A stretch of 64,000 bases of DNA from Melioribacter sp. (GTDB lineage Bacteria; Bacteroidota; Ignavibacteria; Ignavibacteriales; Melioribacteraceae). Shown one piece after another: positions 1 to 47,760 of the stretch. The notes beneath the pieces are model-generated. The model was not told the origin of the DNA. It was given only the letters and a program-made list of their open reading frames with translations, and did not search any database. Location of the stretch: NCBI GenBank assembly GCA_023250955.1, contig JAHEZQ010000019.1, forward strand, positions 1 through 64,000, given 5' to 3'. How positions within the stretch are numbered: the first letter of the stretch is position 1; every line of letters starts with the position of its first letter. Made by a program: the position numbers and the translations under genes.

Positions 1-2736
1 TTTTTGTTTTTTTGCTCCGTGCATTATTTAAGCGGTCAAGAAAAACAATTTAAAGTTGACTTGAAGCTGAACGGATTCGGTGCGTTCTATACGAAAATTA
101 ATTCCGGTGCAGAATATGAAAAATATGCCCGCACTGGAGATTATCCTGATATAGTTGTTGATCTCGGAAACAGCGATTCAAAATTTATTTTTTGGACTGG
201 CTCAAGTTACTTGCCGTTTCTTGATTCAAAAAACGGACGATGGTTTGTTGATGAGTTAATCAAACGTAAGGGTGATGGCGATGAGAAAATGCCTGATAGA
301 ACAAACGCATATTCGGTCGTGAAGATTATTGAGTCATCGAAAGATCAAGTTGTAATTCATTGGAGATATACAACTCAGTTTACAAAATCTAATCCGCAGC
401 TTGGCATAACCCCATATACATTTGTTGACGAATATTTTTATATCAAACCGGATGGTACAGTAAGAAGAACAATTAAGAAGGGTACAAATAAAACTGATGA
501 TTGGACTGATCCTAAAAATATTGTAGCTCAAACTTTCAAACTTACTTCAACAGGAATTGCAGATAAAAATCTAGTTCCGACAGGTAAATCCGAAATCCTT
601 CATGTAGTTCAAGGTTCGAATGTAGTCCCTAATTATATCGTCAAACCTGCTGCATGGTGGAAATTTGATGAAGCACAAGGGGAAGAAGTAACAGAGTCTA
701 TCGGTAATAATAGTTCAGTTGTTGAAGGTAATAAAAGTTTATGGAGAAAAGGTATTTCCGGTACTGCGTTACAGTTTGACGGATACTTTTCAAAAATTGA
801 GATCCCTGCAGAAGTAACTCCAAAAATATCGAATCATTTTACTCTTGAAGCATGGATTGTAATCGGGGCATATCCCTGGAGTTATGTCCCGATTATTCAA
901 CAATGCGATGATGTTCCGGAAGAAGTGCAGTCATTTGTTGGAGAAAAAGCTTTATTGGAAGGGGAGGTAAAAAATTCCGAAGACAAGAAAGATTTTAGAG
1001 TTGAATTAAAAAAAGAAGATGATAAAGGATTTTTCTTAGGTGTTGATGGACATGGGTTTCCATCATTTAAAATTAGAGTTGGTAACAAATGGGAAGAGCT
1101 TACTTCCGGAATCCATCTTGAAAGAAGAAAATGGTATCAACTTGTTGCAACGTACAGTCAAGAAACGGGAGAAATGAATATTTATATTGATGGACAAATT
1201 GCCGGTATTAAAAAGGTTGCCCAAGCCAGCATAGAACTTTCCACGAAAAATATTTTGATTGGAAAAGGGAAAGAACGACGGCCGGTTGATCCTGTAAGAA
1301 AAAATACTTTCCCGGATTCATATTCGTTCGATGGATTGTTGGATGAAATAAAAATTTATGATGTTACTTTGACCGCAGCGCAAGTTGAACAGACCTTCAA
1401 ACTTTACAATTCTATTCCGGCAAAACTTTCAAATGTAAATATGGATAAAAGAGCTTTACCTGATGTAAGACAGCTGCGTTCTTTTGGCGGATATTATACA
1501 AAGCTAAAATTTTATGATATCTGGGATAACCTTTGGCGCTTCAGTGATCATCCCGATGTGGTTGTAGAATTTGATAAGCTGCCTACAAAATTTATTTTTT
1601 GGCGAGGTGTTAGTTACATCCCGATGATTGTTAATGAAAAGAACCAATGGTACAGCAATGAGTTTAATGAAACATGGAATAAATCCGGAGGACAGGGATG
1701 TCAGGAACCGATGTCCGACAAAGAAAATTATAATAATCATGCAAAGATAATTGAGAATACTCCCGCCCGAGTAGTTGTGCAATGGAGATTTCCTCTAATG
1801 GATGTAAATCATGTTATGGCAAATTACAATGATGCAACTGGCTGGGCTGACTGGAGCGATTGGTATTACTACATTTATCCAGATGGTTTGGCAGTAAAGA
1901 AAATGCACTTGTGGACAGATGGCGAAAGAAATCATGAGTGGCAAGAATCGATGGTGATTATGGGACCCGATCAGCATCCTGAACAAATTGTTAATACCAA
2001 AGACGCGCTCACGATGCTGAACATGAAAGGTGAATCGCAAACTTATGATTGGGTAACAGGTCCACCTAAAAATGTGAAGATACCCAAAGAAAAAAATATT
2101 CAGTACGTAAATTATACTGGCGAGTATAAACCGGTTACAATCGGTGAATTTGTAAAGTCAAATGTTTACAACGGCGAGATTACTCCTTATGCTGTTTTCC
2201 CAACATGGAATCATTGGCCGGTTTCTCAAATGCCGTCTGATGGAAGATATGCAAGCTTCACGGATAGAAGCGCTCATTCTTCACTTACTCATGTTATGAT
2301 GCCTGTTTACAAAGAAGCACTCACAGGAGATAAACCTTTCTATGAAAAATTACTCATGGAAGGAATGTTAAATAAAAAACCGGAAGAATTGATCCCGGTT
2401 GCAAAATCATGGTTAAGCGCCCCGCAATTGACAAATGCAAAAGGATGTTCGGGTGAGTTTGATAAAAGCCAGAGAGCATATGTAATCAATTTAAAGACTC
2501 CACCTGTATCATTCAGAATCGATTGTAGCGCCGACCATCCGATGATCAATGCATGTTTCGTAATTAAAAATTGGGGAAAGAGTACAGTTGCAATAATCTT
2601 GATTGACGGTAAAAAAATTGGGGATGATTCATCTATCAAACAAGGTGTAATCAGAGATACCGATGGATCTTATACAAAAATTATTTGGGTGGAAAAAGAA
2701 TCTGTTAAGCCTTTGGATTTTAAAATAACAATGTAA
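1..2736 (+). CDS. LamG-domain secreted protein, family member 1 (5' end truncated by the window); unnamed domain X duplicated around LamG
   Basis: ORF open from the window edge. LamG-like segment (FTLEAWIVIGAYPW...GLLDEIKIYD). C-terminal block FGGYYTKLKFYDIWDNLWRF...FIFWRGVSYIPMIV...PMSDK...IIENTPARVVVQWRF is partly repeated at the N-terminus (FGAFYTKINSG...FIFWTGSSYLPFL). Confidence 0.75.
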   Translation, partial: FLFFCSVHYLSGQEKQFKVDLKLNGFGAFYTKINSGAEYEKYARTGDYPDIVVDLGNSDSKFIFWTGSSYLPFLDSKNGRWFVDELIKRKGDGDEKMPDRTNAYSVVKIIESSKDQVVIHWRYTTQFTKSNPQLGITPYTFVDEYFYIKPDGTVRRTIKKGTNKTDDWTDPKNIVAQTFKLTSTGIADKNLVPTGKSEILHVVQGSNVVPNYIVKPAAWWKFDEAQGEEVTESIGNNSSVVEGNKSLWRKGISGTALQFDGYFSKIEIPAEVTPKISNHFTLEAWIVIGAYPWSYVPIIQQCDDVPEEVQSFVGEKALLEGEVKNSEDKKDFRVELKKEDDKGFFLGVDGHGFPSFKIRVGNKWEELTSGIHLERRKWYQLVATYSQETGEMNIYIDGQIAGIKKVAQASIELSTKNILIGKGKERRPVDPVRKNTFPDSYSFDGLLDEIKIYDVTLTAAQVEQTFKLYNSIPAKLSNVNMDKRALPDVRQLRSFGGYYTKLKFYDIWDNLWRFSDHPDVVVEFDKLPTKFIFWRGVSYIPMIVNEKNQWYSNEFNETWNKSGGQGCQEPMSDKENYNNHAKIIENTPARVVVQWRFPLMDVNHVMANYNDATGWADWSDWYYYIYPDGLAVKKMHLWTDGERNHEWQESMVIMGPDQHPEQIVNTKDALTMLNMKGESQTYDWVTGPPKNVKIPKEKNIQYVNYTGEYKPVTIGEFVKSNVYNGEITPYAVFPTWNHWPVSQMPSDGRYASFTDRSAHSSLTHVMMPVYKEALTGDKPFYEKLLMEGMLNKKPEELIPVAKSWLSAPQLTNAKGCSGEFDKSQRAYVINLKTPPVSFRIDCSADHPMINACFVIKNWGKSTVAIILIDGKKIGDDSSIKQGVIRDTDGSYTKIIWVEKESVKPLDFKITM

Positions 2737-2781: not shown

Positions 2782-5388
2782 TTGAATTTTGGAGCGAAAA
2801 TGAAAAACGTAATTAAAATTTTATTCTTTTTAACCACAATATTTTTTATGTCGGTTAATATTCAAGCCGAAGGAAATAAATTTTATGCATACTATACAAA
2901 AGTTCAGCATTCGGCAACTGACTACATGGGAAAATACGCCGACCTAATTGTTGTACTGGAAGATGGAAAACAATTGGAGTTTACCCGCAAGACAGGTTAC
3001 CAACCATTGTGGAAAACTTCAAGCGGCACTTTTTTGATTGATGATCTTTTCCCAGGCAGAGATCAAGATTTCGAATTCAACTACAATTATGTTCGATTGA
3101 TTAAAAACGATCCCGATAAAATTATCGTTCAATGGCGGTATATCCCAGATATTCAAACACTCAACAAAGCTAATAAAGAATTAGATCCCATGATTGTCAA
3201 TGGATTCACTGGTGTAGTGGATGAATTATTCATTATTTATCCCGACGGCAAAATTGAAAGGGAAGTTAAAGAAGCCAAAAACTCTCGCATTGACGATTGG
3301 TTAAATCCAAAAAGTACAACTCATCAGACAATTAAATTATTGGATTCGGGAATCGATCATGGTATGGTTACGTGGGGAAATCCCGGACCATTTTTCCCGA
3401 GAGCGGCAGTAGAAGGTAATCCAATTAAAAAAAATACGGATGTAGTTAAACCGATTCGTAAATGGTCGTTCGACGAAGGTATTGCAAAGCATAAAGATTA
3501 CGTGTTTGATGAAGTGACCAAAACGAGATCGCTTGTTGAAGGTTTAATGACAACTTATAAAAAAGGAGTTTCGGGAACGTCTCTTGCCTTTGACGGATAT
3601 TATACTGGTGTCGAACTTCAGAAGAGTTTTCCGGAATTTAAAAATGAATTTTCTCTTGAAGCTTGGATAGCGCTTGATGTTCTACCGTACAACATTGCGC
3701 CGATCATTCACCAATCAAAAGAATTCGGAAAGGAAGGATACTATTTTGGAATCGATCCGTACGGATATCCATTCATAACTGTTAATGGAATAACCGCAAA
3801 GTCCATCAAGAAAATTTCTTTGTACAAATGGACACACGTCATGGCAACCGCTGGTGCCGATGAGGTAAACTTATATATAGATAAAGAAAAAGTTGCTTCC
3901 GCTCAAATCAATAATCTCACAATTCCTGCACTACCCGTTTATATCGGGTTGAATAATGAAAAAGAAAGATGCACAGATTTTGTGAGAACCAACGATCAAA
4001 ATTTGTTATTTGTTTATGGAATTCAAGGTTTGTTGGATGAAGTAAAAATTTATGATAAGAAATTATCAGCCGAGCAAATTGCAGAATCTTATAAAGCTCT
4101 CTTACCTGCCGACCGAACTTCTGATCTTGCAAAGGGAGTTTTACCAGGAGAAAATGGAACAGTTCAGAGGTTCGGAGCTTTTTACAAGAAGCTTCAGTTT
4201 CATGAACTTTGGGATAACATGTGGCGCGTATCGGACTTTGCAGATATCGTTGTAAAGTTTGATAACCTTCCCACGAGCGTTCTTTATTGGCGCGGAACAA
4301 ACTACGCTCCAAATTGGGTGGTTGATAATAATCGCTGGATGGCGGATCAAAGTTCTGAGATTTCAACTAAACATGGTTGTTCCGAACACATGGCTGATAA
4401 GCAAGTTCGTTCTAGCTTTTCAACCATAATTGAAAACACTCCGGCGCGTGTTGTTATTCATTGGAGGTATCCTTGCGTTGATGTTAGTTACTTCTGTGCG
4501 AATAGAAGAAATTGGACCGATGAATATCATACAATTTATCCCGATGGTACTGCAATCAGAAAAGTTATTTGGGATAAAGGTTTTGACCTTCCGGGATTTC
4601 AAGATATTCAATTTCTCACAAATCCGGGTGAAGCCCCGCTCGACGTCGTTGATATTCAAGCAATGACGGTTGCAAATACTAAAGGCGAAGTTGAAAAATT
4701 ATTGTGGAAGAAACCTTATATCGTTCCTAAAATTACCATCAATGACGCTTGCATCGAGATGCTTAATTCAAAATCGAACTACAAAGTGTTCACCATTTTC
4801 CAGGGCGGAAAGATTACACCATGGGGCGAGAAAGAACAATCGAAATACATTGATGACCCCTTCGCCGGACCTTGGAATCATTGGCCTGTTCACTTAGTTC
4901 CGTCAGACGGTAGATTCGCGGTCGATGTTGATCGGGTTACTCACTTTGCTCTTGGCGCAAATGATAATGCACCGGAATTTGGAAGTATGGTGTTTTATGG
5001 TTTTACAAATCAACCGATTGAAACATTGATCCCGATTGCAAAAGCTTGGAGAAACCCCCCATCAATTATTGATTTTGAGGGTGGGAAAAACACAGGTTAT
5101 GATAAAGATCAAAAAGCATTTGTATTTCTTCTTGAATCCCAAAAACTCTCATTCAAAATAAATGCAACAAAAGATAGTCCGGTTGTAAATCCAGCATTTG
5201 TTATTCGAGATTGGAATAGTGATTCAAGTGCATTGATTAAAATTGACGGCGAGACTGTTCAAATAGGTTCAGATTGCAGAGAAGGATTAACCAGAGATAC
5301 TAATGGGAAGTTGATGAAAATAATCTGGATGAAAATGACTTCAGAAAAATCGCTCGCTTTGGAAATTATTAAGGAAACTAAAAATTAA
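2782..5388 (+). CDS. LamG-domain secreted protein, family member 2; tandem paralog of the preceding gene
   Basis: Signal peptide (MKNVIKILFFLTTIFFMSVNIQA). Same N-terminal X / LamG / C-terminal X layout (FGAFYKKLQFHELWDNMWRVSDFADIVVKFDNLPTSVLYWRGTNY...EHMADKQ...IIENTPARVVIHWRYP). Confidence 0.8.
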   Translation: MNFGAKMKNVIKILFFLTTIFFMSVNIQAEGNKFYAYYTKVQHSATDYMGKYADLIVVLEDGKQLEFTRKTGYQPLWKTSSGTFLIDDLFPGRDQDFEFNYNYVRLIKNDPDKIIVQWRYIPDIQTLNKANKELDPMIVNGFTGVVDELFIIYPDGKIEREVKEAKNSRIDDWLNPKSTTHQTIKLLDSGIDHGMVTWGNPGPFFPRAAVEGNPIKKNTDVVKPIRKWSFDEGIAKHKDYVFDEVTKTRSLVEGLMTTYKKGVSGTSLAFDGYYTGVELQKSFPEFKNEFSLEAWIALDVLPYNIAPIIHQSKEFGKEGYYFGIDPYGYPFITVNGITAKSIKKISLYKWTHVMATAGADEVNLYIDKEKVASAQINNLTIPALPVYIGLNNEKERCTDFVRTNDQNLLFVYGIQGLLDEVKIYDKKLSAEQIAESYKALLPADRTSDLAKGVLPGENGTVQRFGAFYKKLQFHELWDNMWRVSDFADIVVKFDNLPTSVLYWRGTNYAPNWVVDNNRWMADQSSEISTKHGCSEHMADKQVRSSFSTIIENTPARVVIHWRYPCVDVSYFCANRRNWTDEYHTIYPDGTAIRKVIWDKGFDLPGFQDIQFLTNPGEAPLDVVDIQAMTVANTKGEVEKLLWKKPYIVPKITINDACIEMLNSKSNYKVFTIFQGGKITPWGEKEQSKYIDDPFAGPWNHWPVHLVPSDGRFAVDVDRVTHFALGANDNAPEFGSMVFYGFTNQPIETLIPIAKAWRNPPSIIDFEGGKNTGYDKDQKAFVFLLESQKLSFKINATKDSPVVNPAFVIRDWNSDSSALIKIDGETVQIGSDCREGLTRDTNGKLMKIIWMKMTSEKSLALEIIKETKN

Positions 5389-11471: not shown

Positions 11472-12713
11472 ATGAGGCATTTTGAACAAAAAGGTAATAG
11501 CCAGTATATAAACAAAATAAATAAAATTCGAATCCTAAACCTGATACGTGAAAAAGGTCCTCTTTCACGTGCTGATATTGCAAAGCAGAGCGGAATCAGT
11601 GCCCCGACAGTTACTAGAATTGCTGAAAGTTTGATCAAAGAAGAAGGTCTTATTAAAGAAGTTGGAATTGGAATATCAACTGGTGGGAGAAAACCCACTT
11701 TGTTGGAATTTGCAGCAAATGATAGTTTAGTATTAGGTATAGATCTGGGTACTACTCATATAGATGGAGTATTAGCAAACCTTAATGCAGAATCTATAGC
11801 GGAAATTGTTATCGAAACAAAAATTGATGAAGGATTCGAAAAAATAATGGATAGAATTGCAAATCTGATCTCACAGCTGAGCAATCATCCTAAGGTGCAA
11901 GGTAAAAAAATATTTGGAGTTGGGCTCGCTGTTGCAGGATTGATCAATAGGTATCAAAATGTAATAGAGTTTTCTCCAGATTTTCATTGGGAGGATGTTG
12001 ATATTAAAAAAACTTTGAATGAAAAATTTAATTTCGAAATAAAATTTGATAATGTAACAAGAGTTATGGCTTTAGGAGAACTATGGTATGGTATAGGTCA
12101 ACAAGTAAAAAACTTTATAGTAATTAATATTGGTTACGGTATAGGAGCAGGGATAATTATTAACGGTCAACCATTATATGGTTCTTTTGGTCTCGCTGGT
12201 GAATTTGGGCATATGATAATGGATAAAGACAGTAAAATGAGATGCGAGTGTGGCTCATTTGGATGCTTAGAATCATTAGCCTCTGGACGAGCAATTGCTC
12301 AAAGCGCACTTCAGCAAATAACCGATGGAAGAATCAGTGTTCTCAAAGAAAAAGTTAATGGTGATCTTTTAAAAATTACTACAAAAATGGTTGCGGAGGC
12401 AGCTCGAAATGGTGACCAACTTTCGAAAGAAATATTTGAGAACGCGGTTGAATATCTTGGAATATCCATCACAAATTTAATAAATCTTTTAACCCCGGAA
12501 GTAATACTTATAGGTGGAGGAGTAGCCCAAGCGGATGATCTTCTCTTCGCCAAGATCCAGGAAATTGTAAACAAAAGAGCATTAAGGACAAGATCTAGAA
12601 AAATTTTGCTTAAGCCGGTTACATTTGGAATGAAAGCGGCTTCGAAAGGGGCAGTCGCACTTATATTGAATGAAGTATTAAATCTAGAATTCTCGAAAAA
12701 TTCTCTAAATTAA
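11472..12713 (+). CDS. ROK family transcriptional regulator (NagC/XylR type)
   Basis: N-terminal winged helix (RILNLIREKGPLSRADIAKQSGISAPTVTRIAESL); ROK domain LGIDLGTTHIDGVLANL...CECGSFGCLESLASG. Confidence 0.92.
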   Translation: MRHFEQKGNSQYINKINKIRILNLIREKGPLSRADIAKQSGISAPTVTRIAESLIKEEGLIKEVGIGISTGGRKPTLLEFAANDSLVLGIDLGTTHIDGVLANLNAESIAEIVIETKIDEGFEKIMDRIANLISQLSNHPKVQGKKIFGVGLAVAGLINRYQNVIEFSPDFHWEDVDIKKTLNEKFNFEIKFDNVTRVMALGELWYGIGQQVKNFIVINIGYGIGAGIIINGQPLYGSFGLAGEFGHMIMDKDSKMRCECGSFGCLESLASGRAIAQSALQQITDGRISVLKEKVNGDLLKITTKMVAEAARNGDQLSKEIFENAVEYLGISITNLINLLTPEVILIGGGVAQADDLLFAKIQEIVNKRALRTRSRKILLKPVTFGMKAASKGAVALILNEVLNLEFSKNSLN

Positions 12714-12753
12714 TTGAATGAGGTCACCAAATTCAATATATGCATAATATAAC

Positions 12754-12770
12754 TTTCTAACATTTAGAAA
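12754..12770. promoter_or_regulatory. Candidate ROK operator: perfect 7-bp inverted repeat
   Basis: TTTCTAA-CAT-TTAGAAA between the ROK regulator stop (12713) and the symporter start (12798). Confidence 0.45.
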
Positions 12771-12797
12771 TTAAATAACAAATAAATAGGAAACCCT

Positions 12798-14420
12798 ATG
12801 GGAATTAAATTACAAATACCCGTCTTAGATCTAGTAATTATTGTTACATATCTTATTGCTATGGTCGCAATTGGACTTTGGTCAACGAGAAAGCAAAAAC
12901 AAACTAGTGATAATTATTTTTTAGCTGATCGTGGATTAAAATGGGGAATGATTGGCGCCGCTTTATTTGCTGCAAACATTTCAACAATACATCTTGTTGG
13001 ACTAGCTGCGTCAGGTTTTAATGAAGGATTAGTCTGGGGCAACTTTGAATGGATGGCTACAATCACATTAATTCTTCTCGGTCTGGTGTTTGCACCTTTT
13101 TATTTTAAAAATCGAATTTCTACTTTACCAGAATTTTTAGAAAGAAGATACAGTCCCCACGCGCGATCATTTCTTGCATTTATGGGAATTTTAGGTGCAT
13201 TGTTTATACATATTGGAATGAGTATGTATGCTGGTGCTGCTGTCTTTCAGCAATTCTTTGGAATAGATGTTTATGTTTCAATAATTGTAATAGCTGTGAT
13301 AACTGCTATCTATACTGTCCTTGGTGGTCTGAAAGCAGTAGTTGTAACCGAGGCAATTCAAACTGTAATTTTATTGATGGGTGCAGTACTCGTATTGGTT
13401 TTCGGAATTCTTGCATTACCAAGTCATGGTATCAACAATTTCGCCGAATTCAAATCAGCAATTCGACCTGATCAATTAAGTATGATACATACCGATAATA
13501 GTCACGGATTAGCGTGGTATGCCGTGATGTTAGGTTATCCAATCTTAGGTGTATGGTATTGGTGCACAGATCAAACGATTGTACAAAGAGTTTTAGGGGC
13601 AAAAACTCAACGTGATGCTCAGTTAGGTCCATTGTTCGCCGGGTTTCTAAAAATATTACCTGTATTCCTAATGGTATTACCTGGGGTATTAGGTTATGTA
13701 TTATTTAAAGATCAAATTGGTACAAATAGCAATCTTACTTTACCAGTTTTAATTAATAATTTGGTTCCAACTGGATTGAAAGGAATAATAGCAGCAGGTT
13801 TACTTGCCGCGCTCATGAGTACCATCGCTGCAGCATTAAATAGCTCGGCTACTCTTGTTGCTATTGATATCGTAAAAAGAATGAGACCAGAAACAACTGA
13901 TGAGAAGCAAGTCAGGATTGGCAAAATAGCATCTGTTGTGATCATGCTATTAGCAATGGTTTGGTCAACACAAGGTGGAAAGTATACAAGTATTTTTGAG
14001 GCGATTAACTCAATAGCAGCAAATCTTGCACCGCCAATAACTACTGTGTTTTTATTGGGAGTTTTTTGGAAGAGGGGAACAAAACAAGCAGCGTTGGCAA
14101 CTTTAATATTTGGTTTTACATTAGGGGCAATCGCTTTTGCCCTGGACCTACCCATATTCGGTGACACAAAAATTATAACACATAATTGGGGAATTCCATT
14201 TATGATGCAGGCTTGGTGGCTTTTCTTATTCTGTGTTGCAGTATTCATAACTGTTTCTTTATTTACTCCTAAACCCGATCCTGAAAGTATAAAAGGATTG
14301 ACTTGGGATCATCCATTTGATGTTATCACAAAAGGTAAAATTAGTGGTTTTGCAGATCCAAGAATTATTGCGGGCATATTACTCGTTATTATTATCACGC
14401 TTTATTATTTCTTAAGATAA
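12798..14420 (+). CDS. Sodium:solute symporter (SSS/SLC5-like), sugar transport
   Basis: Many hydrophobic segments; SDNYFLADRGLKWGMIGAALFAANISTIHLVGLAASGF; WCTDQTIVQRVLGAKTQRDAQLG; LLAALMSTIAAALNSSATL. Confidence 0.9.
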   Translation: MGIKLQIPVLDLVIIVTYLIAMVAIGLWSTRKQKQTSDNYFLADRGLKWGMIGAALFAANISTIHLVGLAASGFNEGLVWGNFEWMATITLILLGLVFAPFYFKNRISTLPEFLERRYSPHARSFLAFMGILGALFIHIGMSMYAGAAVFQQFFGIDVYVSIIVIAVITAIYTVLGGLKAVVVTEAIQTVILLMGAVLVLVFGILALPSHGINNFAEFKSAIRPDQLSMIHTDNSHGLAWYAVMLGYPILGVWYWCTDQTIVQRVLGAKTQRDAQLGPLFAGFLKILPVFLMVLPGVLGYVLFKDQIGTNSNLTLPVLINNLVPTGLKGIIAAGLLAALMSTIAAALNSSATLVAIDIVKRMRPETTDEKQVRIGKIASVVIMLLAMVWSTQGGKYTSIFEAINSIAANLAPPITTVFLLGVFWKRGTKQAALATLIFGFTLGAIAFALDLPIFGDTKIITHNWGIPFMMQAWWLFLFCVAVFITVSLFTPKPDPESIKGLTWDHPFDVITKGKISGFADPRIIAGILLVIIITLYYFLR

Positions 14421-14444
14421 AAAAATGATTAGGAGAGTGGAAAA

Positions 14445-15461
14445 ATGAGGCAAGCAATAATGACTTCACCTGGGAAAATTGTTTTTCAAAATATTGAAAA
14501 ACCAAAGCCAGGTCCTGGAGAAGTTTTATTAAAAATAAAAAGAATTGGAGTATGTGGTTCAGATGTTCATGTATGGCATGGGAAACACCCCTATACAAGT
14601 TATCCTGTGATTCAAGGGCATGAATTTTCTGCTACTCTAGTTGGTCTTGGAGACGGGGTGACTAATTTTAAAGTTGGTTCATTAGTTACGGCAACCCCGC
14701 AAGAGGTATGTGGGGTCTGTGGACCGTGCAGACGAGGAGATTACCACATTTGTGATCAACTAAAAGTTAGAGGTTTTCAAGCACCAGGAGTTGCACAGGA
14801 TTATTTTATTACTCAAGCAGATAAGATAGTTTCCCTGCCCGAAAATTTTTCACTCGAACAAGGCGCATTTGTTGAACCTGTTTCTGTTGCTGTTCATTCA
14901 ACACAAAAAGCGGGTGAAATTAAAAATAAAAATGTTGTAGTTCTTGGAGCTGGACCTATTGGAAACTTAATCGCTCAATCGGCAAAAGCAGGCGGGGCAA
15001 ATGTATTGATAACTGATATTAGTGAATACAGATTAGAAATCGCAAAAAAATGTGGTATACAGAATATCTCTAATTCCAGAATAGAAAAATTAAAAGTTGC
15101 TTCTAAAAGAGTATTTGGAGAAAAAGGTTTTAGTGTTGCATTTGAGTGTGTTGGCATTGAAGAAACAATGAGTAATGTTATTGAGAGTATTGAGAAAGGC
15201 GGCACTGTCGTAGTAGTTGGAGTATTTGGTGAGAAACCGAGAGTTGATTTGGGCTTGGTCCAGGATCGGGAGTTAAAATTGGTTGGGACACTAATGTACA
15301 AATATGAAGACTACGTTCAAGCAACTAAATCAATTGAGAATGGCAGTGTGATTTTAGAGCCATTATTCTCAAAGCATTTTAAGTTTGAAAACTATAATGA
15401 AGCTTATAACTTTATTGATCAGCAAGGTGAAAGGTCAATGAAAGTTTTTATTGATTTATGA
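14445..15461 (+). CDS. Zinc-binding sugar/alcohol dehydrogenase (MDR superfamily)
   Basis: GVCGSDVHVWHGKHPYTSYPVIQGHEFSA; CGVCGPCRRGDYHIC; VVLGAGPIGNLIAQ. Confidence 0.88.
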   Translation: MRQAIMTSPGKIVFQNIEKPKPGPGEVLLKIKRIGVCGSDVHVWHGKHPYTSYPVIQGHEFSATLVGLGDGVTNFKVGSLVTATPQEVCGVCGPCRRGDYHICDQLKVRGFQAPGVAQDYFITQADKIVSLPENFSLEQGAFVEPVSVAVHSTQKAGEIKNKNVVVLGAGPIGNLIAQSAKAGGANVLITDISEYRLEIAKKCGIQNISNSRIEKLKVASKRVFGEKGFSVAFECVGIEETMSNVIESIEKGGTVVVVGVFGEKPRVDLGLVQDRELKLVGTLMYKYEDYVQATKSIENGSVILEPLFSKHFKFENYNEAYNFIDQQGERSMKVFIDL

Positions 15462-16369
15462 TACATAACATTTTTAATTCCGATAAAAAATTTGTCGTAG
15501 TAGGATTAGGCGAGTTGCTTTGGGACATTCTTCCATCAGGTAAAAAATTGGGCGGAGCTCCTGCCAATTTTGCTTTTCATGCAAACTCATTGGGTGCAAT
15601 CGGTTTAATTGTAAGTTCTGTTGGAAGTGATAATCTAGGTGATGAAATTGTTACTACACTTCGAGAGTTGCAGCTTGAAACTAAATTCATACAACGGGAT
15701 GAAAAACATTCTACTGGAACTGTCAAAGTGAATCTTGATATTGCAGGTATACCAACTTATAGAATTAATACTGATGTAGCCTGGGATAATATTTCATTTA
15801 CAGATTCGATTGGAGAACTTTCCCTTAAATGTGATGCTATCTGTTTTGGTTCTTTAGCTCAACGATCAGTAATTTCCCAACAAACGATACAATCTTTTCT
15901 AAAACACGCATCTTCAAATTGCTTAAAAATCTTTGATGTTAATCTTCGACAAGAGTTTTTTACAAGAGAGATTATAAAACAGAGTATTGAATCGTCTGAC
16001 TGTTTAAAACTCAACAAAAATGAATTACCAATAATTGCGGAGATGCTTTCCATCGTGGGGAATGAGAACGAGATTATTCATTATTTAATCAAGGAGTACA
16101 AATTAAAAATCGTTGCATTAACAAAATGTGAAAAAGGCAGCTTATTAGTTACTCAGAAAGAAAGTTCAGAGCTTGTTCCAGATACTATTGAGATAGTTGA
16201 TACTGTCGGGGCGGGAGATGCATTCACAGCTGGTATGACAGTCGGAATCTTAAATGGATTGCCTCTGATTGAAATACACAAATTAGCAAATAGGATTGCA
16301 TCATACGTGTGTACCCAATCCGGAGCTACTCCTAGATTGGGCGCAGAACTAATTAGTAGTATTAAATAA
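15458..16369 (+). CDS. PfkB-family carbohydrate kinase
   Basis: GLGELLWDILPSGKKLGGAPANFAFHA; TVGAGDAFTAGM; overlaps the previous stop by 4 nt (ATGA). Confidence 0.88.
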   Translation: MIHNIFNSDKKFVVVGLGELLWDILPSGKKLGGAPANFAFHANSLGAIGLIVSSVGSDNLGDEIVTTLRELQLETKFIQRDEKHSTGTVKVNLDIAGIPTYRINTDVAWDNISFTDSIGELSLKCDAICFGSLAQRSVISQQTIQSFLKHASSNCLKIFDVNLRQEFFTREIIKQSIESSDCLKLNKNELPIIAEMLSIVGNENEIIHYLIKEYKLKIVALTKCEKGSLLVTQKESSELVPDTIEIVDTVGAGDAFTAGMTVGILNGLPLIEIHKLANRIASYVCTQSGATPRLGAELISSIK

Positions 16370-16392
16370 TTGTCCATAATTGTTAAAGGTGA

Positions 16393-17559
16393 ATGATGAA
16401 AAATTTTAATTATTATCAACCGACTGAAATTGTTTTTGGAAACGGAAGAATTGATGAATTAGGTAAAATTGTATCACGTTTTGGTAAAAGATGTTTATTA
16501 GTTTCAACTCCACCTGTACCCGCCTTAAAAACGATTTATGATAAAGTAAAATCGATTCTTAAAAATTCTAATTTAGAAATTGAGCACTTTGATCAAGTTC
16601 AACAAAACCCAACTACCGAAATTGTAACCGCAGGGGCAAATCTCGCCAAAAAGTTTAGAGCGGAAGTAATTATCGGTTTAGGCGGCGGTTCAAGTATGGA
16701 TACAGCAAAAGCAATCGCAGTTGAAACAACACATGAGGGCACTTCCTGGGATTATCTGTTTTATAAGAAACAACCCACCGACAAAACACTTCCAGTAATT
16801 GCTATTAGTACAACTAGTGGTACTGGTTCGCAAGTGACACAAGTTGCTGTAATTACTAATACAAAAGATAGAAACAAATCGGCTATTTATAATTCTATTA
16901 TTTATCCTAGAGTTGCTATAGTGGATCCAGAATTAATGTTGTCGGTACCTAAGCATATTACCGCGTCAACTGGGTTCGATGTTTTTTGCCATTCATTTGA
17001 AAGTACAATTCATCCCGGTACTTCTGCCTATGTTGATACACTTGCATGGAAAGCGATTGCATTAGTAGTTAACACTCTTCCAAAGTTATTAAAAGATTTG
17101 AACAATATTGAATTACGTTCTACTATGGCATTAGCTGATACTCTTGCCGGATTATGCATAGCTAATGCAGGCGTTACATTACCTCATGGAGTCGGTATGG
17201 CCATCAGCGGTCTTTATCCGCATATAATTCATGGTGAATCTCTTGCAATTATTTACCCGGCATTCACAAGATTTACATATGAAAAAGCTATTCCTCAGTT
17301 TGCACAGCTTGCTAGAATTTTTAATACCGACAATCAGAATAAATCAAACAAAAAAGCTGCGGCGTCGGCATGTACTGAAATGGATAAATTCTTAATTAAG
17401 ATTGGTATGTGGTTCAGACTAAAAGATTTTAAAATGCCTGGAAATGAAATTTCGTTATTGGCAAAGAACTCAATGATTCTTCCTGATTATAAAAATAATC
17501 CGAGGATTGCAACAAATAGAGAAATGCTGCAATTGATAACTGAATCATATTCATTATAA
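16393..17559 (+). CDS. Iron-containing alcohol dehydrogenase
   Basis: IGLGGGSSMDTAKAIA; PVIAISTTSGTGSQVTQVAVI; HGVGMAISGLYPHIIHGESLAIIYP. Confidence 0.88.
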   Translation: MMKNFNYYQPTEIVFGNGRIDELGKIVSRFGKRCLLVSTPPVPALKTIYDKVKSILKNSNLEIEHFDQVQQNPTTEIVTAGANLAKKFRAEVIIGLGGGSSMDTAKAIAVETTHEGTSWDYLFYKKQPTDKTLPVIAISTTSGTGSQVTQVAVITNTKDRNKSAIYNSIIYPRVAIVDPELMLSVPKHITASTGFDVFCHSFESTIHPGTSAYVDTLAWKAIALVVNTLPKLLKDLNNIELRSTMALADTLAGLCIANAGVTLPHGVGMAISGLYPHIIHGESLAIIYPAFTRFTYEKAIPQFAQLARIFNTDNQNKSNKKAAASACTEMDKFLIKIGMWFRLKDFKMPGNEISLLAKNSMILPDYKNNPRIATNREMLQLITESYSL

Positions 17560-17719
17560 CAAGCTATTTATTTTATAACACGAATAATTTGTCTAAATAA
17601 TTTATTAGTACGAAAAAATTTAAAATCTATAAATGAAGTTAAAATTGAAAATCTATTTAGGAGTTTCACAGTGCATAGTTTGTTTGAGATAATCATAAAG
17701 GTAATGTAGATGTGAAAAA

Positions 17720-17872
17720 GATTTTTTATAGTATAATTTCTTAATGGAAAATTTTTATGCAATCTCAAACTCTGCATTGGATCGGCTACAAATTATAATC
17801 GTAACTCTAGTCCTTCAGTTAGTACAAAGGATATTTTGCTAAAAACTAGGAAAGTCTTACAAATATCTTAAA
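17720..17872 (+). pseudogene. Decayed 5' fragment duplicating the start of the 20293 SSS symporter gene and its leader
   Basis: ...aatttcttaatgGaaaatttttatgcaatctcaaactctgcattgg... matches 20255-20410; the reading frame MQSQTLHWIGYK is broken by stops. Shadow ORFs on the opposite strand of both copies begin MQSLRLHKNF. Confidence 0.8.
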
Positions 17873-18103
17873 CCGATTATTCAATTGTAGCCTTGATCTT
17901 TGTATATGTCACAAAAGTTGATAAAACATTTTATTGATAATAATTAATCATTAGTCTGCAAATAAAAAGTAATACGGATAATTAAATAATATCAGTACTT
18001 AAATTGCAAAAATATATTGTAAGTGAATTCAATATCAATATGTAGACCATTTTAGAGACTGGACTAATCGAAATGATGAATTAATAATTTTTAGGAGGAA
18101 CTT

Positions 18104-20236
18104 ATGAAAAAGGAAAGTGTGTTCGTTCTGTTTGTTTTGTTATTGTTTCTTACTTGCCGATCAGAATTCGGGCAAGATAATGGGCTAGTTGCATACTGGT
18201 CGTTTGACGAAGCAAGTGGTAAAGTTGTAAACGAATCCATCAAAGGCAGTAAGGACTTAATCCAAGGTAATTTCTCGTTCGTCGGTGGCGTCCGCGGTAA
18301 CGGCATTAAGTACGACGGATTTACAACTCGCATTACACGAGATTCCGTTATGAATGGAAGATGGAATGCACCCGAAATTCAAGATGCTGTTACTTTCGAA
18401 GTTTGGATCACTCCTCAGGCATATCCTTGGAATTGGAATGCAATTGTAGAACAGAAAGACAGATATTTTTTCGGGTTGGATGCATCTGGCCACATTAGTC
18501 TGAGAGTCTTCATAGATAATTATTGGAGAGAGTGTGTCTCGACTTCAGTTGTTCCTTTCATGCAATGGTCACATATTGTTGCGACGTTCAATCCCCAAAG
18601 TGGTCTTACCATCTATATTAATGGGCAGGAGGCCGGTCATTTTGGAATTGTTGGTCGTTTCGCTAGGAAGCGACCTTTTGAACCTAGGCAGATCCAGGAC
18701 AAATATTTTACTGAGCGAGGAGCCGCTGGAGGTGCCTTCCAGATTGGTCGCAATCTAGAAAATTTACCCGCTGCAGCAACCAGACCAATACCAACTTCAT
18801 ATTCTTTTGATGGAATCATAGATGAACTGAAAATCTTTGGACGTGCTCTAGAAGCCGACGAAATAAAGAAATCGTACGAATCCCTGCGTCCTGTTACTCC
18901 ACCTCCTTTGACCTGGCGTAAACTGCCCCGCATCCCAGATGGGCAAAAACAATTTGGTGCCTATTACACAAATCTGAAATTCGACCCAGATTGGGACAGA
19001 CTTTGGCGTATTGATGACTATCCTGATCTGGTAATAACGTTTGATGACGCTACCTACAAAATGGTCTTCTGGCATGGAACTACATACGGCCTCTCTTTGG
19101 TAACAGAAAACGGACTTTGGATGGCAGAACAGAGTGCCGAAAGTCGTCGAACTGAATATGGATGTGTTGAACATATGTCTGATAAACAAGCTCGTTATTC
19201 TCATGTTCGCTTGATCGAAAACAGTCCCGCACGTATCGTCGTGCACTGGCGATATGCCTTGACTGATGTCCTGTATAACATTGGTGAAACCGATCCGATC
19301 ACCGGCTGGGGTGACTGGGCTGACGAGTACTACACAATTTATCCTGATGGTTGGGCGGTTCGTCATGTCCTTGTGCATGGTCCCCGTCAGCGATACAGTT
19401 TAACAGCGCCGCAAGCTATCCTTAGTCCAGGCGAAACACGTGCTGACATCATCTCGACGGAAACAGTTACGTTAGCAAAAATGGATGGCACGACGAGAAG
19501 TTTCGGCCCATCAACCGGAGCTGAACTTAATGAATTCTTGAATTCAGTTCCCATCCCAAATATTGCAATTGTGAATATGAAATCGGATTTCAAGCCAGCG
19601 TGGATTTTCGAGCCACCTACTGTGATTATAGAGGAGCGTCAACGCGGACCAGTGACTCAACTCAGAACTGTGCCGCAAAGTGGAGGTGCTGGTGCAGGAG
19701 GAACTCATTGGCCCATTGCACAAATTCCGTCCGACGGCAGGCGTGCATTTGCACTCGACCGTTTCTCCAGTGTGGAAATGTTTGCACCCGAACCACCACA
19801 AACCAAGCGTGCAAGAGATGGTGCCGTTGAAGCTCGATGGCTTACAGGATTTGCGAACAAACCTTTTGCAACAGTTCCAGTTGCGAATGCATGGTTACAA
19901 CCACCTGAACTGAAAATATCGGGTGTGGATTTCGTTAGTGACGGTTACAGTCGCGATGACCGGGCTTACCACCTGCACCGATTGTCCACAGGAAACACGA
20001 AGCTAGAATTCACTATTCAAGCCAGCGACAAATCGCCGGCAGTGAACCCTGCTTTTGTCATAGATGGATGGAGTAGCGACAGCTTTTCGCTGAACCTGAA
20101 TGGCAAACCAGTTATTGAGGGTAAAGACTTTCGAGTCGGCCGCATCGAGCGGTTGGAAAGTTCCAGTCTCGTAGTCTGGATTCGGGCAGATCTAACTGGG
20201 CCATCAAGCATTTCGCTAACTCCAACGATGAGATAA
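18104..20236 (+). CDS. LamG-domain secreted protein, family member 3 (single C-terminal domain X)
   Basis: Signal-peptide-like start; LamG segment (VTFEVWITPQAYPWNWNAIVEQKDRYFFGLDASG); FGAYYTNLKFDPDWDRLWRIDDYPDLVITFDD...FWHGTTYG...GCVEHMSDKQARYSHVRLIENSPARIVVHWRY...DEYYTIYPDGWAVR. Visibly more GC-rich than its neighbours. Confidence 0.8.
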   Translation: MKKESVFVLFVLLLFLTCRSEFGQDNGLVAYWSFDEASGKVVNESIKGSKDLIQGNFSFVGGVRGNGIKYDGFTTRITRDSVMNGRWNAPEIQDAVTFEVWITPQAYPWNWNAIVEQKDRYFFGLDASGHISLRVFIDNYWRECVSTSVVPFMQWSHIVATFNPQSGLTIYINGQEAGHFGIVGRFARKRPFEPRQIQDKYFTERGAAGGAFQIGRNLENLPAAATRPIPTSYSFDGIIDELKIFGRALEADEIKKSYESLRPVTPPPLTWRKLPRIPDGQKQFGAYYTNLKFDPDWDRLWRIDDYPDLVITFDDATYKMVFWHGTTYGLSLVTENGLWMAEQSAESRRTEYGCVEHMSDKQARYSHVRLIENSPARIVVHWRYALTDVLYNIGETDPITGWGDWADEYYTIYPDGWAVRHVLVHGPRQRYSLTAPQAILSPGETRADIISTETVTLAKMDGTTRSFGPSTGAELNEFLNSVPIPNIAIVNMKSDFKPAWIFEPPTVIIEERQRGPVTQLRTVPQSGGAGAGGTHWPIAQIPSDGRRAFALDRFSSVEMFAPEPPQTKRARDGAVEARWLTGFANKPFATVPVANAWLQPPELKISGVDFVSDGYSRDDRAYHLHRLSTGNTKLEFTIQASDKSPAVNPAFVIDGWSSDSFSLNLNGKPVIEGKDFRVGRIERLESSSLVVWIRADLTGPSSISLTPTMR

Positions 20237-20254
20237 ATTTTAAAAGATATAAAT

Positions 20255-20410
20255 AGAGTTTTTATAATAAAATTTCTTAAGGTAAAATTTTTATGCAATC
20301 TCAAACTCTGCATTGGGTTGACTACACAATAATAATCACAATTCTGGTTGCTTCAGTTGGATTTGGAGGATACTTTGCAAACAGACAAAAAAGTACAAAC
20401 AAATATTTCA
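20255..20410. repeat. Functional-side copy of the direct repeat shared with 17720-17872 (leader and 5' end of symporter)
   Basis: Direct comparison, e.g. tttttatgcaatctcaaactctgcattgg identical in both copies. Confidence 0.8.
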
Positions 20411-21861
20411 AAGGTGGTGGCACAATTCCAGCATGGGCATTAGGAATGTCGATTTTAGCAACAATAATAAGCAGTGTAACATTTCTTGCTTATCCGGGTG
20501 CAGCATATAAATCTAATTGGATTTTACTTGTGCAAGGATTGATGGTTCCCGTAGTTCTGTTAAGTATTGTATGGTTCATTGTTCCCCTATACCGCGATGT
20601 GATTGGATTGAGTGCTTATGAATATTTCGAAAAAAGATTTGGTGTTGTTGCGCGTCTTTATAGTTCTGTTGGTTTTATTCTTGCACACTTTTCAAAAATG
20701 GGGACTGTTTTTTTCCTACTAGCTGTTGCCCTCTCGAGCATGATGGGTGTAAACACTTATTTAATTCTTTGGGTACTTGGGATATCAATTATAACTCTTA
20801 CCTTATTGGGTGGAATCGAAGCTGTAATTTGGCTAGATGTATTCCAGGGATTCATGTTTATTGTTGGAGGTCTTCTCACATTAGGAATTTTATTATTTGT
20901 TCCTGCCGGTGGTCCTACTGCTGTGCTTAAAATTGCTTATGAAAATAATAAAATGGGTTTTGGTCCTTATGATCTCGATTTTACAAAATTAACATTCATT
21001 GTACTGGTTCTGAATGGAATTTTCTATGCAATTCAAAAGTATGGGACTGATCAAACAATTATTCAACGGTATCTCGTTGCAAAATCAGATAAAGCCGCAA
21101 TCAAAGCATCTCTTATTGGAGTTCTATTATGTATTCCAGTCTGGGCAATGTTTATGTTCATCGGAACATGTTTATTCTCATATTATAAAATAACAGGCGC
21201 ATCACTTCCGGCAAATATTAAAGCCGATGCTGTATTCCCATATTTTATCGTAAACGAAATGCCAATCGGTATTATTGGACTTGTAATTTCTGCTCTTATA
21301 GCAGCTGCTGTCTCAACCTTAGATGCCGATATGAATTGTTTAGCTGCAATTGGAGTTGAAGATTATTATTGCAGGATTAAAAAAAATACTACAGATAAAC
21401 AAAAATTAACGATGGGAAAAATATTTGTAGTTTTTTCCGGATTAGGAGCTCTTGGTATTGCCACCATTTATATTGAATCAGGGGGAGAAGGTGTTTTGGG
21501 AATAATCTTTGGATTGTATGCAATTTTTTCTGCAGGTATAGCCGGACTTTTTCTACTTGGAATATTTAGTAAAAGAGCTAACAAACAAGGTCTATATATA
21601 GGAATGGCGACTTGTGTTTTATTTACTGCATATGCTTTACTTACATCGATGAAAGTTGATTTTGGAAATGGGCCAACATTAATACTAGATCTCGGAAAAT
21701 TTAATTTTACCCATCATGATTATATGCTAGGTGTCTATAGCCATGTTATTTTGTTCGGAGTTGGTTGGGCTGCAAGTTTTTTATTTCCTAAAAGAGAAAT
21801 TGATAAAAATCTAACGATCTATTCGTATATCGAGAAAAGAAAACAGGGAGAAGTAAGATGA
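20293..21861 (+). CDS. Sodium:solute symporter (SSS/SLC5-like), second copy
   Basis: STNKYFKGGGTIPAWALGMSILATIISSVTFLAYPGAAY; KYGTDQTIIQRYLVAKSDKAA; ALIAAAVSTLDADMN. Confidence 0.9.
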   Translation: MQSQTLHWVDYTIIITILVASVGFGGYFANRQKSTNKYFKGGGTIPAWALGMSILATIISSVTFLAYPGAAYKSNWILLVQGLMVPVVLLSIVWFIVPLYRDVIGLSAYEYFEKRFGVVARLYSSVGFILAHFSKMGTVFFLLAVALSSMMGVNTYLILWVLGISIITLTLLGGIEAVIWLDVFQGFMFIVGGLLTLGILLFVPAGGPTAVLKIAYENNKMGFGPYDLDFTKLTFIVLVLNGIFYAIQKYGTDQTIIQRYLVAKSDKAAIKASLIGVLLCIPVWAMFMFIGTCLFSYYKITGASLPANIKADAVFPYFIVNEMPIGIIGLVISALIAAAVSTLDADMNCLAAIGVEDYYCRIKKNTTDKQKLTMGKIFVVFSGLGALGIATIYIESGGEGVLGIIFGLYAIFSAGIAGLFLLGIFSKRANKQGLYIGMATCVLFTAYALLTSMKVDFGNGPTLILDLGKFNFTHHDYMLGVYSHVILFGVGWAASFLFPKREIDKNLTIYSYIEKRKQGEVR

Positions 21862-22730
21862 TTCACAGATATTATAAAGAAGGTCGAAAATTAGACGTTG
21901 CCGGATTAAATCAAATAACTGTATTGATAGATAGGAGCGAAACAGAATCAACCGAAGTTGGATTAAATGAATGGAAACCGAATCTTATTGGACCACCACA
22001 CTTGCATCGTGATAAAGATCAGATTTTTTATTTCACTTCAGGTATTGGACTTGTAAAAATAGGTGAGGATGAATATAAAGTGAGTGAGAGATGTATAGCA
22101 TATATCCCTGCTGGTAACGTACATAGGACGATTAATAAAAATGATCAACCTTTAACATATCTATTATTCAATATTTTCAATGACGGTGGCAAAGAAGGAC
22201 ACAAATCATTTGCAGAACATATCGAAAATGTGAAGATGACAAGGAAGCAACAAGCTGAAACAGGCAAAGCTGATGTTGAAAATATATCTATAGATTTTGA
22301 AATAAAAAAAGCAAAATTTTTCAATAACCCAGGAGAAGGTATACGCTTTGACTTCGGTTCTAACGCAACAATCTTATTACTTGATCGTAAAGAAACGAAT
22401 AGATGTGAGTTGACTTTAGTTTCATGGCCAGCTGGAAATAAAGGAGCTCTTGTTGCCCACAAGGAAAAAGAACAAATATTTTTTGTTCTTAATGGAAGTG
22501 GGTGGGTTACAATTGGAAATGAAACTGAAGAAGTAAAACCGGGGGAACTAATTTTTGTCCCCAGAAATACTCCGCACACTACTGAAGCTGGGACTGAAGA
22601 TCTTACCTATTTGTGCATGAACGGATTGTCCGGTGAAATTAAGGATTTATCATTCCATGAAATGTTTAATCGAGTGTCTTCCGCAAGAATTGAAAGGTGG
22701 AAATCTGGGAATAAGACTATTGGTGAATGA
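21858..22730 (+). CDS. Two-cupin-domain protein
   Basis: Two cupin repeats: PPHLHRDKDQIFYFTSGIGLVKIGEDEYKVSERCIAYIPAGNVHRTIN and ALVAHKEKEQIFFVLNGSGWVTIGNETEEVKPGELIFVPRNTPHTTE. Confidence 0.8.
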   Translation: MIHRYYKEGRKLDVAGLNQITVLIDRSETESTEVGLNEWKPNLIGPPHLHRDKDQIFYFTSGIGLVKIGEDEYKVSERCIAYIPAGNVHRTINKNDQPLTYLLFNIFNDGGKEGHKSFAEHIENVKMTRKQQAETGKADVENISIDFEIKKAKFFNNPGEGIRFDFGSNATILLLDRKETNRCELTLVSWPAGNKGALVAHKEKEQIFFVLNGSGWVTIGNETEEVKPGELIFVPRNTPHTTEAGTEDLTYLCMNGLSGEIKDLSFHEMFNRVSSARIERWKSGNKTIGE

Positions 22731-22781
22731 ATGAACTCAACTGTTTTTTTATAACTACTAAATAAAAAATACTATCAAACC

Positions 22782-25766
22782 ATGCTTGGGAAAAAAACAC
22801 TACTGTTGAAAATTTTCTTTTTATTCCTTTCTAACAATCTTTTCTTCAATACAGTAGCGCAAACAATTAGTCTAAATGGATTATGGGAAACCGGGAACGA
22901 TAGAAATTATACACGTTCAGTGATAGTACCAAGCATAAGTGAAAATCCGAAAGAGATGAACTCTGGAAGTTTGTGGTTTCGGAAAATTGTAACACTTCCC
23001 GAAGGTCAGTGGCAATTCGCAACGTTAATATTGAGGGGTGCAAGATTTTGCCCAAAAATTTATGTAAATAATATTTTGGTCTCAGAGCATGATGGGGGGA
23101 TGGCACTGACAGTTCATTTTCTCAATCACAAAGATATAACTCCGGGTAAAACAGTAACACTCGAAATCGAATTACAATCGCTCAAGAATGTGCTGGTCAC
23201 AGATGCATCGTATATTCCGGTTGCGGATCAATGGCGCTCAAACATCTCTTCTTGTATTTGGGATGATGTTGTTTTACAGTTGCACAGAGATTTTCGAATT
23301 GAAAAAATAATTCCATTTACTGATTTCAAAAAGAAAAATGTAAGCGTCCACTATGCATTACAAAAAATAGGAGAGTTACCTTTACCGATTTTCGGAAAAG
23401 TTGAATTGGTGGATAAAACGAATCAAATCATTTTCAAGAAAGAAACAATAATTGATTCGTTAAAAGGAGTCATTAATTTTTCATTAGATAAAAATATTAA
23501 AACTTGGTCTCCGGAAAATCCAAACCTCTATAAACTTAGGTTTTCTGTTTTTACTTTACAATCATTAATTGATAGCAAAGAAATATCATTTGGTCTCAAA
23601 GATTTCCATGTTGAGGAAAAACAGTTCCTACTCAATAATAAAAAATATAAATTACGTGCGGGTACCGTTGTTTGGCACCGGTGGGTTCGCGATGATGAAG
23701 GAAGAGAATTAGCTTATGATACAACCTGGTTTAAAAATAATGTTATAAACAGATTGAAAAAGCATGGCGCCAATGCAATCAGGTTCCATCTTGGCAATCC
23801 ACCCGAAAGATTTTTAGACTTATGCGACAAATATGGATTGTTGGTTCAATGCGAATGGTCTTTCTTCCATGGGCTTCCTGCCTCGGAAGAAAGTTTAACG
23901 AATCAATGGCGAAACTGGTTTGACCTTGCCATGCTGCATCCATCAATTGCAATTATTCATCCTTATAATGAAACAGCTACCAAACAATTAAAAACCGCAT
24001 GGGCTGTTTTAGATAAACTAACTTTCGATTATCCACCAATTGTATTAGAAGATAGAGATGTAATTCACATTCACAAATACTGGTGGAGTCTTTTTGAAAA
24101 TTTAGGGTTGTACTATGACAGTTATAAACAATTTGATAAAGCAATCATGGTGGACGAGTTTGGCGGTAATTATCTTGATGGAAACTATAATGCCGGAGGT
24201 TACCCTACAACTAAAGCAGCTTTTTTAAGATTCCTCGGCAGAAATAATAACGCAGAGCAAAGAATACATCATCAAAATATTTCCAACTCAAAAGTTGCAG
24301 AATATTGGAGGCGTATTGGAGCTGCCGGCTTTTCACCATTTACAATTTTAGCAAGTTATGAAGACGGCAATCATTGGTTTGCTGGAAAGCTTAAAGCTGG
24401 CAATCCAAAACCGGTTTGGGATGCTCTAACTGCTGCGTGGTCCCCAATCTCTCTGAGTATTGAAATGTGGGATAGAAATTTTTTGCCCGATCAAAAAATA
24501 ATCTTACCTGTTTATTTCTTTAATGATACAGATAAGAATAAAATTCTTGAAGCAAAAGTTGCAATCGTTGATAAAGAAAAAAATGTGATAGAGGAAATTT
24601 CGGTATCAATTCCTGTCGCTGCAACTTCGTACAAAATAAAGAAAATAAATATGAAGACGCCTTCGTTTACTGGTGAATATTTTTTCCGTGCGCAATTAAC
24701 AAATCCTTCTAAAGAAATAAAATATCCGGTTATTTCGGAAAGTGAGTTTCGTACTTTGAGAGCCATTATTCCAGAAAAAATAAAAAACAAAATTGTCGGA
24801 GTTTTCGAAGATGAAAAAGAGCTTTGCGATTTACTAATTAGCCGCGGAATTAAAATTACTGATGCAAATAATCCCAAAGCAGAAATAATAATCACTTCAA
24901 CAACTACATGGAATAAGATCACTGCACGTGATAATCCGACTATTCAAACGATTGAAAAATTTGTTAAACAAGGAAAACATGTTCTACTTCTTGATATAGG
25001 ACCCAAATTTTTAGGACCTTCATATCCTTCCGATACAACAAAAATAAATTTCCTACAAGGTGCACCGAAAGTTTCCGGAACAGTTCTGCATACTGTGGAT
25101 TTTCTATTAGGGACAAAATTAGTATTCGAAAATATGTCAGAGCCGGAAAGTCATATTCATGCCTCATCTTTTGGTTATAGATTATGGGATAACTTAAAAC
25201 CAAACTACACTTGGTTATGGAATGGTTTACGCGGAGGGATAATTGTCCCGGCGGTTAAAATGGAAATTCATGGAATTCAAAAGAATACATTTCTTAATTA
25301 TTGGGAAATGCGTGGCGCCGACACTACAAAAATAATTTTAGGAAATTATTACGCTTACGAACTTGAAGGTTACTGCAGTTTCTCATCGCTTAGTAAAGAT
25401 AAAGCGGTGCAAGATAGTTTACGTAAAAAAGTAAAATTTATTGTAGAAGATGCACCGTCGCTCGCTTCCTCGATGGATCCAAATTCGGAAATTAAAATTA
25501 TTGATTTACATTCAGAGTTGTTGGAGTGCGGTAAGTCCCAAGCAGTAAAATATATCCCTCTTGTTAATTGTGGAATAGGTTTAAGTAAAGCTCCTGTTGT
25601 TTTAATCAATTTCGGTAACGATAAAGGTAAAGTAATATTATCTCAATTATTAACCTCTGGAAGATTGGCTAATAATGTTAAGAATTCAAATTTGTATGCA
25701 ATACGTCATGATGAGGTTGCTGTTCAAATGGTATTGAACATGTTAAGATTTCTTGTCGAAGAATAA
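22782..25766 (+). CDS. Glycoside hydrolase family 2-like protein
   Basis: N-terminal jelly-roll (SLNGLWETGNDRNYTRSVIVPS...LWFRKIVTLP); TWSPENPNLYKLRFSVF; GFGLKDFHVE-like segment; barrel NRLKKHGANAIRFHLGNPPERFLDLCDKYGLLVQCEWSF, MVDEFGGNYLDG. Confidence 0.75.
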   Translation: MLGKKTLLLKIFFLFLSNNLFFNTVAQTISLNGLWETGNDRNYTRSVIVPSISENPKEMNSGSLWFRKIVTLPEGQWQFATLILRGARFCPKIYVNNILVSEHDGGMALTVHFLNHKDITPGKTVTLEIELQSLKNVLVTDASYIPVADQWRSNISSCIWDDVVLQLHRDFRIEKIIPFTDFKKKNVSVHYALQKIGELPLPIFGKVELVDKTNQIIFKKETIIDSLKGVINFSLDKNIKTWSPENPNLYKLRFSVFTLQSLIDSKEISFGLKDFHVEEKQFLLNNKKYKLRAGTVVWHRWVRDDEGRELAYDTTWFKNNVINRLKKHGANAIRFHLGNPPERFLDLCDKYGLLVQCEWSFFHGLPASEESLTNQWRNWFDLAMLHPSIAIIHPYNETATKQLKTAWAVLDKLTFDYPPIVLEDRDVIHIHKYWWSLFENLGLYYDSYKQFDKAIMVDEFGGNYLDGNYNAGGYPTTKAAFLRFLGRNNNAEQRIHHQNISNSKVAEYWRRIGAAGFSPFTILASYEDGNHWFAGKLKAGNPKPVWDALTAAWSPISLSIEMWDRNFLPDQKIILPVYFFNDTDKNKILEAKVAIVDKEKNVIEEISVSIPVAATSYKIKKINMKTPSFTGEYFFRAQLTNPSKEIKYPVISESEFRTLRAIIPEKIKNKIVGVFEDEKELCDLLISRGIKITDANNPKAEIIITSTTTWNKITARDNPTIQTIEKFVKQGKHVLLLDIGPKFLGPSYPSDTTKINFLQGAPKVSGTVLHTVDFLLGTKLVFENMSEPESHIHASSFGYRLWDNLKPNYTWLWNGLRGGIIVPAVKMEIHGIQKNTFLNYWEMRGADTTKIILGNYYAYELEGYCSFSSLSKDKAVQDSLRKKVKFIVEDAPSLASSMDPNSEIKIIDLHSELLECGKSQAVKYIPLVNCGIGLSKAPVVLINFGNDKGKVILSQLLTSGRLANNVKNSNLYAIRHDEVAVQMVLNMLRFLVEE

Positions 25767-44458: not shown

Positions 44459-44474
44459 AGGAAAGAGGATTAAA

Positions 44475-45422: not shown

Positions 45423-45440
45423 AAGGAAAATAATAAACAT

Positions 45441-46472: not shown

Positions 46473-46508
46473 TTTTTTTTCTATTATTGATAAAATTTAG
46501 GGAAGTAT

Positions 46509-47678: not shown

Positions 47679-47760
47679 TTGTCCATATCCTAAACTCTGT
47701 TAGTATTTTAAAATGTAAAGATATTACCTTAACTATCTGAATATTCATAAATGATAGATA

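Follow-up and report, generated by a model that had tools for sequence, protein, structure and literature searches.

A horizontally acquired LamG gene lies between direct repeats of a symporter start in a Melioribacter polysaccharide-degradation region

The window analyzed here comprises 64,000 nucleotides from Melioribacter sp. (assembly GCA_023250955.1, contig JAHEZQ010000019.1, positions 1 to 64,000 of the forward strand). It is a polysaccharide-degradation region, containing GH29 fucosidases, GH28, RGL11-like proteins, GH2, GH127, GH43, sulfatases, and sugar-acid metabolism genes, and its gene cluster is of a plant-polysaccharide-degrading type directed at pectin, fucose, and sulfate polysaccharides. 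A row of four protein kinase paralogs, three with TPR repeats and one with PD40 repeats, lies elsewhere in the window at 49998-60859. At the locus of interest, all genes and both repeat copies are on the plus strand. An iron-containing alcohol dehydrogenase gene assigned by Pfam (FeADH1, 16393-17559) forms the upstream flank. It is followed by copy 1 (17708-17872), where the leader of the downstream symporter gene recurs in decayed form together with its first ~40 codons, then by an AT-rich spacer of 231 bp (17873-18103) and a LamG gene encoding 710 residues (18104-20236). The intact leader and first 40 codons (copy 2, 20245-20412) belong to a sodium:solute symporter of 522 residues (SSF2, 20293-21861; PF00474). 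The direct repeats enclose a single foreign gene, LamG, and copy 2 begins 9 bp past its stop codon.

The best local alignment between 17708-17872 and 20245-20412 had 78% identity over 170 columns. Of its 163 ungapped columns, 30 carried substitutions (Jukes-Cantor distance 0.21), and six of its seven single-base gaps fell within the coding part. Its score was 141, compared with a maximum of 43 among 500 dinucleotide-preserving shuffles, and the distal half (from 17791) was significant alone, scoring 37 against 28 for the best of 1000 shuffles (0/1000). Similarity ended upstream of 17708 and 20245, where the score was reached by 144 of 500 shuffles. The repeat reported by the first-pass annotation at ~17720-17872 is therefore real and slightly longer than described. 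Its frame is broken, as was also reported: the ATG at 17757 is followed after 13 codons by an in-frame stop at 17796. Substitutions were spread over codon positions 1, 2, and 3 without bias (8, 6, and 9), which gives no sign of coding constraint on copy 1. Together with the stop and frameshifts, this strongly supports the earlier proposal that copy 1 is a decaying pseudo-copy of the symporter start.

Divergence between the copies was uneven: the first 73 columns held 8 differences and the remaining 97 held 29 (Fisher p = 0.004 in a post hoc test). A run of 33 identical columns included the start codon and its surroundings (p = 0.004 by permutation, with the test picked after seeing the data). 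Simple neutral decay does not predict this unevenness, and either gene conversion or retained function could account for the identical block. The window holds no second repeat pair of this kind, its other repeat families being located inside genes. No third copy of the leader was found in the genome, and comparing the spacer (17860-18110) with the whole genome returned only short AT-rich chance matches.

When compared with the other 37 of the 38 open reading frames in the window, the LamG gene was the strongest outlier in GC content (0.466 versus 0.28-0.395), GC3 (0.398 versus 0.20-0.35), Arg/(Arg+Lys) (0.64 versus at most 0.46), and codon-usage divergence (0.161 versus at most 0.094). Both the original impression of a GC-richer and Arg-richer gene and the proposed check of its codon usage against neighboring genes were thus borne out. 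The step in GC coincides with the LamG coding sequence, and the upstream spacer, at 24% GC, resembles host intergenic DNA. The genome's own LamG paralogs, on C61 and at window positions 4-2736 and 2782-5388, are ordinary for the host in composition, those on C61 having GC of 0.35-0.385, and therefore high GC is not a trait of the family. Not one frameshift interrupts the 2133 bp of the LamG gene, whereas copy 1 contains six in ~120 coding bp. Judged by this difference, selection evidently acts on the LamG gene.

We scanned 84,980 species genomes for LamG homologues with a search that works via conserved peptides and may miss some relatives. The top matches were in two MAGs of soil Acidobacteria (L018, 67% identity; L019, 63%), and all others had 44% identity or less. 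A 39-sequence tree placed the LamG gene within a clade supported at 100/100, whose other members, three sequences, are all Acidobacteriota. Its sister, again with 100/100 support, was L018_p1493, which belongs to a tandem pair in L018. The host's own LamG paralogs, for which the first-pass annotation had suggested a tree, were placed elsewhere. An insert of ~20 residues (RFARKRPFEP...AAGG) is common only to the LamG gene, L018_p1493, and a broken copy in L019. No relative closer to the window gene is known than the broken copy, which is partly inverted and located at L019:1480-2338. It corresponds to residues ~81-298, includes an inverted stretch, and has 77.5% identity to the LamG protein over 213 columns; a tree of residues ~81-298 alone was small and not well resolved. 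The end of the signal peptide (CRSxFGQDxGLVAYW) is also matched in L019, which implies that essentially the whole gene was transferred.

Close homologues of the LamG gene were absent from all 95 relatives (E ≤ 1e-40) and from all 394 other genomes of the phylum (E ≤ 1e-150). The gene is also sporadic in Acidobacteria, occurring in 2 of 397 genomes in the order of L018, and these 397 genomes contained no closer donor than the two already known. A phylogeny conflicting with the host lineage, absence in close relatives, atypical composition and codon use, and the shared insert together strongly support the LamG gene being foreign and horizontally acquired, and its source can safely be called acidobacterial-like. 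In this respect, the earlier claim of acquisition stood.

The LamG protein is predicted to consist of a signal peptide, a LamG jelly roll at about residues 25-260, and a C-terminal beta-supersandwich at about residues 270-710. It matched Laminin_G_3 (PF13385) with 81.2 bits relative to a curated cut-off of 27.6. In fold searches, the best structural counterpart of the N-terminal domain was domain 4 of the arabinanase AbnA (Z 21.5 over 192 residues, rmsd 2.7). The domain shares fold and Pfam family with the AbnA-type LamG of secreted carbohydrate-active proteins. It differs from that type in being fused to a conserved C-terminal domain of ~440 residues without a Pfam family. The C-terminal domain was modelled with a pLDDT of 83, and fold searches returned Z scores of 12-14 to PL26 rhamnogalacturonan lyase, PL8 lyases, and GH38 sandwich domains. 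We rejected membership in these families because such scores reflect the common supersandwich fold. Whole-protein Foldseek matches to clostridial neurotoxin binding domains were likewise rejected as a functional link, since they reflect the shared LamG jelly roll, with ~10% identity and rmsd above 15 over long alignments.

No Pfam family and no PDB sequence matched the C-terminal domain, yet many of its charged and aromatic positions show no variation among 23 sequences, and H381, R383, D407, and E408 belong to the conserved residues. This conserved domain of ~440 residues (window 18899-20233) occurs both joined to LamG and by itself, in Acidobacteriota, Planctomycetota, Bacteroidota, and other phyla, making it a candidate unknown carbohydrate-active domain. 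We infer that the LamG protein is probably secreted and binds carbohydrates, with the polysaccharides degraded by the cluster as its targets, and that it is possibly an enzyme.

Orthologs of SSF2 in relatives (61-65% identity) mostly close an operon of FeADH-DHDPS-PdxA-DUF1537-SSF, and a search of 391 genomes of the class recovered symporter orthologs of only ~62-63% identity in a different context. Here, the FeADH2-DHDPS-PdxA-DUF1537 block is at 43.3-47.7 kb and SSF2 is 26 kb upstream beside FeADH1. The block itself (43313-47678) is without its usual SSF symporter, and its degree of divergence differs from that of SSF2: relative to genome G026, the block has 72-80% identity and SSF2 has 61%. 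Behind DUF1537 (47679-48554), the place of SSF2 in relatives, no SSF2 remnant was found. This 876-bp AT-rich intergenic region contains repeated TTTGGTCACA-like words. No close ortholog of FeADH1 was found in relatives. Given that SSF2 is apart from its usual block and FeADH1 is without a close ortholog, the neighborhood is a mosaic. The first-pass annotation had proposed looking for an empty site in related genomes, but none emerged: neither DNA of 11472-25766 against 79 genomes of the family nor FeADH1 protein against 57 relatives yielded a syntenic site. The FeADH1-LamG-SSF2 neighborhood is private to this Melioribacter sp. genome among the genomes compared.

Composition and sequence divergence bear on the age of the acquisition. 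GC3 of the LamG gene (0.398) lies between that of the host (~0.25) and that of the acidobacterial copies (0.62-0.65). With a neutral distance of ~0.2 taken from the repeats, a simple and rough relaxation model put GC3 on arrival at 0.46-0.48, which is below the sampled acidobacterial copies. This mismatch implies either a donor of intermediate GC or a LamG gene that has been in low-GC genomes for longer than the repeats have existed. Hence, under this model the LamG gene may be older in the host than the duplication, or its donor may have had intermediate GC. Furthermore, the repeats differ by ~0.21 substitutions per site and the LamG protein by 22% from the closest sequence known, both of which indicate appreciable age. 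A recent acquisition, as originally claimed, is therefore at best weakly supported, and the relaxation estimate, though rough, argues against it.

We infer, with a probability of about 0.5, that insertion of the LamG gene and duplication of the symporter start were linked in a single event resembling additive single-crossover integration. A single gene of acidobacterial descent (18104-20236) would have entered between the alcohol dehydrogenase and symporter genes when incoming LamG-bearing DNA recombined with the chromosome at the 5' end of the symporter. Integration of this kind would leave a ~165-bp direct duplication flanking the insert, much as happens when a circular molecule integrates by a single crossover. 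The working symporter would have been retained in the downstream copy, the upstream copy would have drifted after losing function, and the LamG gene would have remained under selection. The insert is indeed bounded by direct repeats of its target (17708-17872 and 20245-20412), and a target duplication of this length is not a transposon signature and fits single-crossover integration. No transposase or integrase was recognized among the open reading frames scanned with Pfam, in agreement with the earlier statement that none was obvious. No tRNA was recognized in the window and no inverted repeats of at least 25 bp at 15-23 kb, and the duplication is not of the short type that transposons leave. 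Several observations count against insertion-linked duplication. The host-like spacer (17873-18103) blurs the left edge of the insert, and carrying ~165 bp of symporter sequence on acidobacterial DNA would need an intermediate host or secondary joining. The uneven repeat divergence and the mismatch between GC3 and repeat age also count against it.

That mismatch would permit separate events, as in a possible but less probable order in which the symporter was tandemly duplicated and LamG later took the place of most of the upstream copy, so that just its start survived. Such an order could explain why copy 1 ends after codon ~40 and gives way to 231 bp of AT-rich host-like DNA, and two genomes (L047 and L048) have a second SSF gene adjoining their SSF2 ortholog. 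However, at 36-41% identity to SSF2, the adjacent genes in relatives are diverged paralogs rather than recent duplicates, and alignment of the spacer to symporter codons past ~40 was equalled by 14 of 200 shuffles and thus was not clearly above chance. Alternatively, the 33 identical columns, the less divergent first 73 columns, and promoter-like hexamers near the leader would be expected if copy 1 were kept as a regulatory leader driving or attenuating LamG transcription, with its core conserved for that role. We consider this improbable, as the identical block spans 24 bases of coding sequence and not the promoter region, and gene conversion accounts for it equally. Moreover, the LamG gene starts ~345 bp downstream with its own ribosome-binding site (AGGAGGA), promoter-scan matches were only about twice the shuffle mean in this AT-rich DNA, and there was no Rfam match. 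A variant in which the insertion-linked duplication placed the foreign gene under the resident leader by promoter or leader-peptide capture, with the core conserved for function, is very improbable. Least probable of all is the absence of any causal link, with the decayed fragment and the foreign gene being independent products of an often rearranged cluster. The mosaic neighborhood, with SSF2 split from its more conserved block and FeADH1 lacking a close ortholog, is in keeping with such independence, but repeats placed around exactly one foreign gene, with copy 2 so near its stop codon, would be an unlikely coincidence.

Insertion-linked duplication by single-crossover integration has a precedent. 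In E. coli conjugation experiments, 14 sequenced single-crossover (Campbell-type) integrants carried 109-950-bp duplications of the homologous target, a range that includes the ~165 bp found here (PMC3240628). In both cases, foreign DNA is inserted, part of a resident gene is directly duplicated, and no transposase is needed, although the integrants arose under selection from a cloned homologous segment (PMC3240628), whereas here integration is deduced from an old and partly decayed state. Natural transformation of Streptococcus pneumoniae similarly produces tandem duplications and merodiploidy during uptake of donor DNA, independently of transposase (PMC3784515). Those duplications are mostly large and repeat-mediated, unlike the ~165 bp here, with one small 3.3-kb case being without flanking repeats (PMC3784515). 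The first-pass annotation's view that the insertion duplicated the symporter start is made plausible by the E. coli precedent (PMC3240628), but no empty site in the genomes compared shows the order of events it assumed.

When placed in context, these results describe a well-marked but ordinary single-gene horizontal transfer. Mosaic operons arise by single-gene horizontal transfer, and the present locus resembles them in having one foreign gene amid functionally related native genes, here marked by a flanking direct repeat. It represents a fairly clean case of a single, putatively carbohydrate-processing gene crossing phyla into a mosaic polysaccharide-degradation cluster. The scar would be of the additive homologous-integration type, rather than that of a transposon, and such scars are probably seldom preserved.
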